A DNA stretch of 34,011 bases from Pelagibacteraceae bacterium AG-410-D23 (lineage in GTDB: Bacteria; Pseudomonadota; Alphaproteobacteria; Pelagibacterales; Pelagibacteraceae). This document shows, piece after piece, positions 2,487-6,852 of this stretch. The stretch is taken from the NCBI GenBank assembly GCA_003215185.1, contig QCKR01000002.1:1-34011 (forward strand). Direction: 5' to 3'. Made by a program: the position numbers and the translations under genes. Under the pieces are notes generated by a model. It did no database searches. It saw only the letters and a list, made by a program, of their open reading frames with translations, and had not been told where the DNA came from. Numbering within the stretch: the first letter of the stretch is position 1; every line of letters begins with the position of its first letter.

Positions 2487-3038
2487 ATGGAATTAATAAA
2501 ATCATCTCAAAATCTAAAAATTTTAAAGTCAGTTTTAATTGTTTTTTTTGGATCAATTCTATTAGTTATTTCTGCAAAAATAAAAATTCCTTTTTACCCA
2601 GTGCCAATGACAATGCAAACATTTGCTGTATTATTCATAGGACTTTCTTTTGGATATAAGATTGGATTAGCAACTATTGGATTATATCTTTTGGAAGGAA
2701 TATTTGGACTGCCAGTTTTTTCTAACTCTCCAGAAAAAGGGGTTGGATGGATTTATTTCACAGGACCAACCATGGGTTATTTAATAGGTTTTTTATTTGC
2801 AACATTTTTAGCTGGATATTTAAATTTTAAAACAAATTTTATAGTTATTTTTTTTAAATTAATAGTTTCTGTATCAACAATATACATATTGGGTGTTTTA
2901 TGGCTTGGAAATTTAATCGGTTGGGATAAACCAGTAATCGAATTTGGTGTAACACCATTTTTATTAGCTGAATTATTTAAGATTTCTTTACTAACAGTAA
3001 TAAGTAAAAAAATTTTAAAATTTAGAAATTTTATTTAG
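2487..3038 (+). CDS. bioY: BioY family biotin transporter (S component)
   Basis: KIPFYPVPMTMQTFAVLFIGLSFG and GVGWIYFTGPTMGYLIGF are BioY hallmarks; about 183 aa membrane protein. Confidence 0.9.
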   Translation: MELIKSSQNLKILKSVLIVFFGSILLVISAKIKIPFYPVPMTMQTFAVLFIGLSFGYKIGLATIGLYLLEGIFGLPVFSNSPEKGVGWIYFTGPTMGYLIGFLFATFLAGYLNFKTNFIVIFFKLIVSVSTIYILGVLWLGNLIGWDKPVIEFGVTPFLLAELFKISLLTVISKKILKFRNFI

Positions 3039-3624
3039 GAGATCTTTTAGATAATATTCTTTGTAAAGTTCTTCTATGCATCTTGAGTCTTCTAGCTGTC
3101 TCGGATACATTTCTATTACATAATTCAAAAACTCTATGTATATGTTCCCATTTTACTCTATCAGCTGACATCGGATTTTCGGGTGGTGGTGCCTTACTTT
3201 TTGGATCTGCTAAAAGAGCTTTTTCAACATCATCTGCATCAGCTGGTTTTGCTAAATAGTCTATAGCACCATGTTTAACTGCTGCAACAGCTGTTGGGAT
3301 GTTACCATAACCTGTAAGCATTATGATTCGACTTTTGTTATTGAAGTTTTGAAGTTCCTTTACAACCTCAAGTCCATTTCCATCATTTAATCTTAAATCT
3401 ATAACTGCAAATGCAGGTTTTTTTAATTTTAAACATTCAATTCCTCTTTTTACACCTTCAGCTTGCGTTACTTTAAAACCTTTTTTTTCCATTGCTCTTG
3501 AAAGTCTTTCTCTAAAAGGATTATCATCATCTACTATGAGTAGTGATTTATCCTCAAATTCACTAGCATTTTTTATATTTTTGAAGTCATTCATTATCTT
3601 TATAATATGTGAATAGTTTTCCAC
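3031..3624 (-). CDS. regA: RegA/PrrA/ActR-type response regulator (receiver plus Fis-type HTH)
   Basis: LIVDDDNPFRERL, AVIDLRLNDGNG, MLTGYGNIPTAVAAVKHGAIDYLAKPADADDV, C-terminal NVSETARRLKMHRRTLQRILSKR. ATGs at 3624 and 3594 are both possible starts. Confidence 0.92.
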   Translation of the reverse strand: MENYSHIIKIMNDFKNIKNASEFEDKSLLIVDDDNPFRERLSRAMEKKGFKVTQAEGVKRGIECLKLKKPAFAVIDLRLNDGNGLEVVKELQNFNNKSRIIMLTGYGNIPTAVAAVKHGAIDYLAKPADADDVEKALLADPKSKAPPPENPMSADRVKWEHIHRVFELCNRNVSETARRLKMHRRTLQRILSKRSPK

Positions 3625-3644
3625 ATTTCAAGAGGTAATTATTT

Positions 3645-3721
3645 ACTTTACATTGATTAATTATTGTCTTAACTGCTGAATCATGTAAAGTTTTTCAGTT
3701 AAATATTGAAAAATTTTTTTT
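3645..3721 (+). ncRNA. Putative structured leader (H-type pseudoknot plus alternative terminator-like hairpin) of the polyamine cluster
   Basis: P1: ACTTTACAT(T)GATT 3645-3658 pairs with AATCATGTAAAGT 3679-3691. Pseudoknot: loop TTAACTG 3669-3675 pairs with CAGTTAA 3696-3702. Alternative hairpin: TTTTTCA 3691-3697 pairs with TGAAAAA 3707-3713, followed by T8 (3714-3721). Confidence 0.5.
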
Positions 3722-3747
3722 GTTAAATTTTTTTGGGGGCATATGAA

Positions 3748-4926
3748 ATGGAAAAATTTAAAACAGTTGATGAATTAGTACGTCAACTAAAACCTGTTGA
3801 GCCAGTTTATTGTATCAGAAAAAAATCGATACAAGTGGCTTCCAAGATTTTTCAGAAAAAATTTCCAGGCAAAGTGTTGTATGCCGTAAAAACGAATCCT
3901 CATACTGAAGTATTAAAAACAATTTCTCAAAGTGGTATAGAAAATTTTGATGTAGCATCAATAAAAGAAATTGATGATATAAAGAAAATAAATCCCAAAG
4001 CAAAATGCTCATATATGCATACTGTAAAAAGCAGAGAAAGTATAAATGAAGCTTATTTTAAATATGATGTTAAAACTTTTTCTTTAGATTCAAAAGATGA
4101 ATTAATAAAAATAATTGAATCAACAAATCATGCAAAAGACTTAGAGTTATTTGTAAGAGTATCAGTTTCTAATGAGCATGCTGAAATTGATTTATCAAAA
4201 AAATTTGGAGCATTAACTTCTGAAGCTATTGGTCTGTTAAGATTAGCAAAACAATATGCAAAAAAAATCGGTTTAAGTTTTCATGTTGGCTCACAATGTA
4301 TGCATCCAATTTCTTATTCAAAAGGCATCACTGAAATAGGAAATATAATTAAAAAAACAAAAATTGTTCCAGATTACATAAACGTTGGTGGAGGATTCCC
4401 CACTATATATCCTGATTTAATACCACAATCTTTGGATAATTATTTTAAAGAGATAAAAGATAGTTTAAAAAATTTAAAATTGGATAAAAAACCAGAAATC
4501 TTATGTGAACCTGGAAGAGCAATAGTTGCGGAAAGTGGTTCCACTATTGTTAGAGTTAATTTAAGAAAAAAACAAAAACTTTATATAAATGATGGTACAT
4601 ATGGAACTCTTTTTGATGCAGGAGTTCCAAATATAGTGTATCCATCTCGAATTATTACAAATGGAAGAATTATTTCAAAAAAATTAACTGCATTTGATTT
4701 TTATGGACCTACTTGTGACAGCATGGATTATATGAAAGGTCCTTTTGTGCTTCCAAACAATATTAAGGAAAATGACTATATAGAGCTAGGTCAACTTGGT
4801 GCTTACGGTTTAACTTTTAGAACTAAGTTTAATGGTTTTTATTCTGATAGAATTTATGAAATTGAAGATGAACCAATCATGACCATGTATGACAAAGAAG
4901 CTAACAAAGCGTTTCTTGTTGCTTAA
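3748..4926 (+). CDS. Fold-type III PLP-dependent ornithine/lysine decarboxylase
   Basis: Tracked ORF begins at TTG 3733; ATG 3748 is the likelier start, with GGGGG (3735-3739) as Shine-Dalgarno. VLYAVKTNPH (PLP Lys), HVGSQC, CEPGRAIVAESG, YGPTCDSMD. Confidence 0.9.
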   Translation: MEKFKTVDELVRQLKPVEPVYCIRKKSIQVASKIFQKKFPGKVLYAVKTNPHTEVLKTISQSGIENFDVASIKEIDDIKKINPKAKCSYMHTVKSRESINEAYFKYDVKTFSLDSKDELIKIIESTNHAKDLELFVRVSVSNEHAEIDLSKKFGALTSEAIGLLRLAKQYAKKIGLSFHVGSQCMHPISYSKGITEIGNIIKKTKIVPDYINVGGGFPTIYPDLIPQSLDNYFKEIKDSLKNLKLDKKPEILCEPGRAIVAESGSTIVRVNLRKKQKLYINDGTYGTLFDAGVPNIVYPSRIITNGRIISKKLTAFDFYGPTCDSMDYMKGPFVLPNNIKENDYIELGQLGAYGLTFRTKFNGFYSDRIYEIEDEPIMTMYDKEANKAFLVA

Positions 4927-5970
4927 ATGTCAGAAAAAAAAAATCTAGGACACAACAGTAAAAAAGACTTTTTAAATAAAGAAGTTGAACATATTGATAT
5001 TACCTCTTTTGATGCGAGAAAAATAATTTCATCAATGAAAAAAATGTCTTTTGTTTCAAGAGAAACTGCAAATGCCGCTAGTATATTTAATGAAATGATT
5101 AAAGATAAGGATTGTACAATTTTTTTAACACTGGCTGGATCCACTTCTGCTGCGGGATGTATGCATATTTATAGAGATATGATTAAATACAACATGGTTG
5201 ATGCAATTGTAGCTACTGGAGCATCAATTATTGATATGGATTTTTTTGAAGCTCTTGGATTTAAACATTACCAAGGCTCACAATTTCAAGACGATACTGA
5301 ATTAAGAAAAAATTATATTGATAGAATATATGATACTTACATTAATGAAGATGAGCTTCAAATGTGTGATAAAATAATATGTGAAATAGCAGATAAACTA
5401 GAACCAAGAAGTTATACATCTAGAGAGTTTATAAATGAAATAGGAAAATACTTGAAAAGTAATGCCAAAAAGAAAGGTTCCTTAATAGAGACTGCATATG
5501 AAAACGATGTTCCAATTTTTTGCCCAGCTTTCACAGATTCAAGTGCTGGATTTGGATTGGTAATGCACCAAGAAAAAAATCCAAAAAAACATATTACAAT
5601 AGATTCAATTAGAGAATTTCGTGAACTAACTGAAATTAAAATAAGATCAAAAGGATCTGGATTATTTATGATTGGCGGAGGGGTTCCAAAAAATTTCATT
5701 CAAGACACAGTTATTTGTGCTGAACTTTTAGGAAAAGAAGTAGATATGCACAAATATGCTGTTCAAATAACTGTTGCCGACTCAAGAGATGGTGCATGCA
5801 GCAGTTCTACTCTAAAGGAAGCTAGCTCATGGGGAAAAGTTGATATTACAAAAGAACAGATGGTATTTGCAGAAGCAACTAGCGTTCTTCCTTTAATTGC
5901 AAGCGACGCTTATCACAAAGGTGAATGGAAAAATAGAAATAGAAAAAATTTTTCAAAAATATTTGGATAA
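4927..5970 (+). CDS. Deoxyhypusine synthase-like protein (probable polyamine aminobutyl/aminopropyl transferase)
   Basis: TLAGSTSAAGCMHIYRDMI, VPIFCPAFTDSSAGFG, IGGGVPKNF (catalytic Lys position of DHS), ITVADSRDGACSSSTLKEASSWGKV. ATG directly abuts the upstream stop. Confidence 0.88.
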   Translation: MSEKKNLGHNSKKDFLNKEVEHIDITSFDARKIISSMKKMSFVSRETANAASIFNEMIKDKDCTIFLTLAGSTSAAGCMHIYRDMIKYNMVDAIVATGASIIDMDFFEALGFKHYQGSQFQDDTELRKNYIDRIYDTYINEDELQMCDKIICEIADKLEPRSYTSREFINEIGKYLKSNAKKKGSLIETAYENDVPIFCPAFTDSSAGFGLVMHQEKNPKKHITIDSIREFRELTEIKIRSKGSGLFMIGGGVPKNFIQDTVICAELLGKEVDMHKYAVQITVADSRDGACSSSTLKEASSWGKVDITKEQMVFAEATSVLPLIASDAYHKGEWKNRNRKNFSKIFG

Positions 5971-5973
5971 AAA

Positions 5974-6852
5974 TTGAATTTCTTATCAAACAAACAGGGA
6001 TTTCTTGGAATTGACAATAAGTTCAAAATTAAAGAGAAAGCTATAATTGTCCCATTTGGTTTAGAAAAAACAGTTAGTTATGGTGGTGGAACAAAAAATG
6101 GCCCGAAAGAAATTATTAAAGCTTCACATCAAGTTGAATTATACGATGAAGAATTAAACTGCGAACCATATAAAAAAATAGGAATAAAAACATTAAAACC
6201 TTTTAAAATAGATAAAAACATAAATAAAGCATTAAATAAAATGTCAAAAATAAATGAAGTAATTTTAAATAAAAAAATTTTTCCATTAACTCTTGGAGGT
6301 GAACACTCAATAACACCTGGTTGTATAGCACCTTTTGCAAAAAAATATAAAAAATTATGTTTATTACACTTTGATGCCCATGCTGATTTAAGAGAAAGTT
6401 ATAATGGAGAAAAATTTTCACATGCCTCAGCAATAAAGAGATGTTTGGATTACAAAAATGTCTCGGTGATATCTTTTGGTATTAGAAACATATCTAAAAA
6501 AGAAGTACCTTATTTAAAAAAAAATTCTTCAAGAATTAATATTTTTTGGGCGAAAGATAAGAAGAAATGGAATTTAAATAAATTTAAAAAAATGATTAAA
6601 AATAAAACAGTTTATTTAACTTTTGACGTAGATGGATTTGACTCAAGTATCATGCCTGCAACTGGCACGCCTGAACCTGGTGGTATTTTTTGGGATGAAA
6701 CTCTAGAAATAATAAAGATAGCTATTAAAAATTCAAATATTGTTGGTGCAGATATAAACGAACTTGCCCCAATAAAAGGGTTTAATTCATACAACTTTTT
6801 AGTAGCTAAATTAGCTTATAAGATTTTATCCTATAAATTTTTATATAAATAA
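5974..6852 (+). CDS. speB: Agmatinase/arginase (ureohydrolase) family protein
   Basis: GGEHSITPG, HFDAHADLR, SHASAIKR, FDVDGFDSSIMPATGTPEPGG, GADINELAP (Mn-ligand motifs). TTG start. Confidence 0.88.
   Translation: MNFLSNKQGFLGIDNKFKIKEKAIIVPFGLEKTVSYGGGTKNGPKEIIKASHQVELYDEELNCEPYKKIGIKTLKPFKIDKNINKALNKMSKINEVILNKKIFPLTLGGEHSITPGCIAPFAKKYKKLCLLHFDAHADLRESYNGEKFSHASAIKRCLDYKNVSVISFGIRNISKKEVPYLKKNSSRINIFWAKDKKKWNLNKFKKMIKNKTVYLTFDVDGFDSSIMPATGTPEPGGIFWDETLEIIKIAIKNSNIVGADINELAPIKGFNSYNFLVAKLAYKILSYKFLYK

Follow-up and report, generated by a model that had tools for sequence, protein, structure and literature searches.

The speF element of alphaproteobacteria (RF00518; PMC1273637), several hundred nucleotides in length and containing a long bulged stem-loop, lies upstream of a decarboxylase gene of the COG0019 type. 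The same class of bacteria harbors the odc1 (uORF-25-1) motif, which displays a dual-start geometry (PMC8632094): UUG starts two nucleotides apart, an overlapping upstream open reading frame (uORF) with a constant length of 11 amino acids, and a ribosome-binding site set in the right shoulder of stem P1. The window analyzed here, i.e., the whole 34,011-nt stretch from Pelagibacteraceae bacterium AG-410-D23, a member of SAR11, the most abundant bacteria in the ocean, contains a previously unlisted short mRNA leader of a polyamine operon. With moderate confidence, we read this region as a promoter followed by a short structured, attenuator-like leader of the SAR11 arginine-to-homospermidine operon. 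It occupies the same kind of site as speF, upstream of a COG0019-type decarboxylase gene, but is only about 65 nt long, and the speF covariance model matched neither the window nor its leader nor the sister-genus leaders. An Rfam 15 search gave zero matches in the window, zero in 20 sister leaders, and a single meaningless match of the window leader at a relaxed threshold. The odc1-like leaders of two distant alphaproteobacteria (L298 and L304) are likewise without an Rfam match; the family is apparently missing from Rfam, whose silence on the window is therefore uninformative about kinship with odc1.

Three genes on the + strand make up the operon. The first (3748 to 4926; Pfam Orn_Arg_deC_N/C) encodes a decarboxylase of the ODC fold, the second (4927 to 5970) is deoxyhypusine-synthase-like (NCBIfam NF002699, 578.6 bits; cutoff, 500), and the third (5974 to 6852) belongs to the agmatinase family (NCBIfam TIGR01230, 202.2 bits; cutoff, 174.3). 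The initial annotation was right about a polyamine operon but not about an "ODC" gene at its head, since the orthologous Candidatus P. ubique protein has arginine decarboxylase activity and no ornithine decarboxylase activity (PMC9992855). This makes ornithine a less likely signal. The second gene is a candidate caldomycin/homospermidine synthase; the SAR11 enzyme has been labelled a SpeY-type homospermidine synthase (PMC9992855), and in Thermus a caldomycin synthase together with a ureohydrolase leads from agmatine to homospermidine (PMC10981699). Literature searches returned nothing direct on SAR11 transcription starts or on regulation of the polyamine operon.

A gene for an ActR/PrrA/RegA redox response regulator (3031 to 3594, − strand, start codon at 3594) diverges from the operon, a gene order kept in 125 of 129 loci, and its product could control the polyamine genes. 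A promoter-like site for this gene lies at 3602 to 3631 on the − strand (TTGAAA, 18 nt, TATTAT; 10 of 12 consensus matches). Because of an inverted repeat, the minus strand also carries a promoter-like TTTACA-N18-AATAAT at 3660 to 3689 that points to regA and whose −35 half, ATGTAAA, relatives do not retain.

The initial annotation had drawn an H-type pseudoknot upstream of the decarboxylase gene, a topology that constitutes the sole likeness of the region to SAM-II, SAM-V, and preQ1 riboswitches, whose covariance models matched neither the window nor the leader. All of the repeats on which the drawing relies are present in the window sequence. The P1 arms ACTTTACAT-T-GATT (3645 to 3658) and AATC-ATGTAAAGT (3679 to 3691) enclose a 20-nt loop, whose TTAACTG (3669 to 3675) is exactly complementary to CAGTTAA (3696 to 3702), and TTTTTCA (3691 to 3697) and TGAAAAA (3707 to 3713) could form a competing terminator hairpin. 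Such complementarity is rare among shuffles of the same stretch: 0.2% of dinucleotide shuffles, made from these 86 nt, yielded a perfect stem of at least 9 bp plus a 7-bp pseudoknot, and folding of the pseudoknot region gave a z of −2.4. Since the 34-kb AT-rich window holds about 400 stretches of this kind, roughly one chance case is to be expected.

Comparison with orthologous leaders, gathered from Pelagibacter and further genera in its family, leaves a riboswitch built on P1 (3645 to 3691) and this pseudoknot with next to no probability. When arms were swapped between the 138 Pelagibacter-type leaders, the longest P1 pairing run averaged 4.89 bp in own arms versus 5.09 bp in swapped ones, and that of the pseudoknot helix averaged 5.04 versus 4.94. 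P1 mapped onto alignment A2 paired in 67.4% of cells, its shuffles in 67.3%, and covariation was not in excess. Neither helix is thus conserved or covarying, and the pseudoknot is absent already in the nearest relatives, where CAGTTAA is replaced by CAATAAT (L055) or CAATTAT (L035). The P1/pseudoknot fold was rejected on the swapped-arm and shuffle controls, and its strands fall on a conserved promoter-like pair. Most of the suspected metabolite-sensing knot is probably promoter sequence that was taken for RNA.

That pair consists of a −35-like box, CTTTACA (3646 to 3652, + strand), which coincides with the 5' arm of P1 and is near-invariant in Pelagibacter, and a −10-like box, TTAACT (3669 to 3674, + strand), a hexamer of the TWAAWT type that coincides with the pseudoknot loop strand and lies 16 nt after TTTACA. 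Anchoring 130 Pelagibacter-type leaders on CTTTAC revealed a near-invariant ATTATTTRCTTTACAWT, a variable spacer, and WTAAWTGC at a fixed distance. In 75 leaders from other genera, the −35-like box (TTTACA in 67, TTGACA in 5, and TTTACT in 3) is followed by N16 and then T (96%) W A A W. This fixed-distance pair is the layout expected of a sigma-70-type promoter. The swap of TTTACA to TTGACA, seen in two lineages, breaks P1 yet keeps or even improves the promoter, which favors the promoter reading. A generic scan for sigma-70 promoters and terminators, whose GC bias is too strong for such DNA, did not call the + strand promoter and missed the −10-like box, which counts against the promoter reading, so that the assignment rests on conservation. 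Position-wise conservation was used in place of a TATAAT-weighted spacer scan of ambiguous outcome, and other genes supplied too few intergenic regions for a promoter consensus.

Judged from the position of the −10-like box, transcription would start at 3681 to 3683 on the + strand. The transcript thus probably begins near 3681, downstream of about 3660, the limit that the initial annotation had set. Because the strands coincide with the −35/−10-like pair at fixed N16, the P1 5' arm and the pseudoknot loop strand are probably both untranscribed, and the P1/pseudoknot would not form in the mRNA. Upstream of the ODC homologue in the distant alphaproteobacteria L298 and L295, too, CTTTACAT precedes the dual start by about 110 nt, similar to SAR11, and the arrangement of promoter and start may be an ancient one.

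Behind the putative promoter, the expectation of a conserved structured leader ahead of the polyamine operon was borne out by a hairpin and its adjoining tracts. In the window, AAAGTTTTTCAGT and ATTGAAAAATTTT pair around a TAAAT loop (3687 to 3717, + strand; ΔG, −9.1 kcal/mol) and run into a first U tract of eight T's at the hairpin foot (3714 to 3721), followed by GTTAAA with a second tract of seven T's (3722 to 3734) and the Shine-Dalgarno sequence GGGGG (3735 to 3739). Most Pelagibacter leaders share this hairpin and the order of hairpin ending in U7-8, RUUAAA-U7-8, and Shine-Dalgarno sequence, and 131 of 138 contain the U-RUUAAA-U tract. The hairpin has a mean ΔG of −7.6 versus −2.1 in shuffled Pelagibacter leaders and reaches −3 or lower in 93% of those with the tract. 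Its stem exists in two unrelated sequences, AAAGUUUUU.. in the first class and ..UUGCAUA.. in the second. The window leader belongs to the first class, and the formal covariation count covers the second (class b), in whose 35 sequences pairing holds in 95.3% of cells, four pairs show changes in both partners, and the covariation score was reached by 0 of 500 shuffles. The terminator-like hairpin of the initial annotation therefore holds up as a stable structure with a U run directly after it.

Lying between promoter and start codon and ending in U7-8, the hairpin resembles a promoter-proximal intrinsic terminator, i.e., an attenuator. It differs from one in its mostly A-U pairs and in starting no more than about 10 nt from the predicted transcription start, which leaves no room for a classical antiterminator upstream. 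In Pelagibacter, the hairpin would most likely be a weak intrinsic terminator and thereby keep expression of the operon low. Hairpin-T patterns match only the polyamine operon locus across 61 genomes; the tract pattern matches this locus plus two unrelated places, apparently inside genes. In 294 kb of background, a hairpin with T7 occurs in 3 of 114 upstream regions, two of them the polyamine operon leader itself. Behind genes, too, hairpin-T7 terminators are rare (2 of 99 downstream regions in L235 to L247 plus the window, 294 kb), suggesting that this lineage may end transcription by other means or with weaker signals. This rarity of intrinsic terminators in the sampled upstream and downstream regions speaks against the promoter-plus-attenuator reading. 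Conversely, the arrangement is seldom found at other genes and is confined essentially to one locus in whole genomes, unlike general stabilizers or enhancers. It thereby weakens an explanation without regulation, in which the hairpin guards the 5' end, the U tracts serve as an S1-type ribosome-binding enhancer, and the dual ATG is a tolerated relic; we regard that explanation as rather unlikely, even with the unremarkable folding of the start region in its favor.

Sister genera build the leader differently. In g32 and g34, it forms a hairpin whose stems vary (AAGCUU/AAGCUU, AAGAGU/ACUCUU, AAGGUU/AACCUU, AUAAGGU/ACCUUAU, and AGCUUC/GAAGCU) around a conserved U-rich loop, UUAUNAAAUUUUUU, with a z of about −2.0 for the hairpin region. 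As stems were picked per leader for pairing, the own-versus-swapped figure leans towards pairing, and the z-scores and stem types are the fairer measures. RNAalifold on a MAFFT alignment of sister leaders recovered P2 only, because stem registers differ between leaders, and a per-leader stem comparison was used in its place. The hairpin is followed by UGUGU...GGGG...ACACAUG, in which UGUGU and ACACA flank the Shine-Dalgarno sequence; these outer pairs are invariant, so covariation neither supports nor refutes the helix. A model of this g32/g34 leader had a single match in each of 10 genomes out of 18, some of them outside the building set, and wherever a gene position was listed the match lay upstream of the decarboxylase gene; the model had no match to Pelagibacter, g33, g35, g36, or g39 leaders. 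The U run after the hairpin is absent in most sister genera, and this loss, together with the A-U-rich hairpin, argues that termination is not the common denominator. There, the Shine-Dalgarno sequence would instead be held inside the small hairpin.

Stems that covary while the U-rich loop is kept, one locus per genome, and genera that differ as expression platforms do would also suit a small-molecule riboswitch of another fold. Its U-tract/RUUAAA/U-tract core and hairpin would recognize a metabolite of the pathway (agmatine, caldomycin, homospermidine, putrescine, or arginine), with the terminator as output in Pelagibacter and the Shine-Dalgarno hairpin in sister genera. We consider this quite improbable, as the core is low-complexity and made of A and U only, the loop and stem of the Pelagibacter hairpin vary freely, and no known aptamer matches.

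Translation initiation is probably limited as well under the attenuator-like reading, given the U-rich core, the Shine-Dalgarno sequence, and the overlapping starts AUGNNAUG found in many relatives. In the window, ATG 3743 and ATG 3748 lie two nucleotides apart, the former (at −5) opening an out-of-frame overlapping uORF (3743 to 3778, + strand) of 11 amino acids, MKWKNLKQLMN; many relatives have uORFs of 12 or 18. Of 67 sister leaders, 46 have an ATG at −5, as do 26 of 140 Pelagibacter leaders (another 3 have TTG). Among 286 background genes the count is 3, but two of these are the decarboxylase gene itself, leaving about 1 in 284 other genes. The upstream ATG is only 3 to 4 nt from the Shine-Dalgarno sequence, and the main ATG stands at a good distance. 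Such proximity may be too close for good use, which would suit an absence of regulation; in the regulatory reading, structure could tune the choice between two competing starts.

Invariance extends into the decarboxylase gene, where the third positions of codons 2 to 4 (A, A, and T; codons 2 to 5 at 3751 to 3762 in the window) are invariant in 144 of 144 leaders and codon 5 is split between AAA (73) and AAG (65). The leader tract UUAAAUUUUU complements this invariant stretch, and the second U tract with its GTTAAA to AAAAATTTAA in codons 2 to 5, a complementarity to be read knowing that AAATTT is self-complementary. Many folds predict a hairpin between UUAAAUUUUU and codons 2 to 5 (AAAAAUUUAA), a candidate pairing in a start region whose folding is not unusual, a result that also counts against the promoter-plus-attenuator reading.

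The described system that comes closest is odc1. Both leaders precede a gene of the ODC family (Pfam Orn_Arg_deC_N/C); the two-nucleotide spacing of the starts (in the window and the 46 sister leaders) and the short overlapping uORF (11 amino acids in the window) recur, and sister genera share with odc1 a large-loop hairpin and a Shine-Dalgarno sequence within structure. The ODC homologues L298 and L304, from another alphaproteobacterial family (42 to 45% identity), have TTG-AA-TTG starts, 11-amino-acid uORFs, and the Shine-Dalgarno sequence inside a long hairpin. In contrast to odc1, nearly all SAR11 leaders start with AUG (UUG as the main start is confined to g35), uORF length varies, the sister-genus ribosome-binding site lies in a separate hairpin rather than in P1, no pseudoknot is supported, and most Pelagibacter leaders lack the dual start. 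The varying uORF and the patchy dual start weigh against the main reading as well. On this comparative evidence, kinship with the dual-start odc1 leader of alphaproteobacteria is probable, with the SAR11 leader as a diverged, AT-rich relative. Bolder still is the proposal of an AT-rich odc1 descendant shared across the SAR11 family, whose U-tract/RUUAAA/U-tract core detects a polyamine or guanidino compound from the pathway that it controls (agmatine, caldomycin, or homospermidine) and drives the Pelagibacter terminator and the sister-genus Shine-Dalgarno or dual-start control; we hold it to be improbable.

To conclude, a promoter-like geometry, a hairpin, U tracts, and a dual start are conserved ahead of the SAR11 arginine-to-homospermidine operon, and the leader would keep polyamine synthesis low, perhaps tunably and in response to polyamine supply. 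The locus is a case in point of how a −35/−10 pair in AT-rich DNA can mimic a riboswitch pseudoknot. Judging by the dual-start geometry common to both, the orphan odc1 may have relatives in a second, very AT-rich alphaproteobacterial branch, which could help separate the essential parts of odc1, and the leader offers a concrete, cloneable test of such control.
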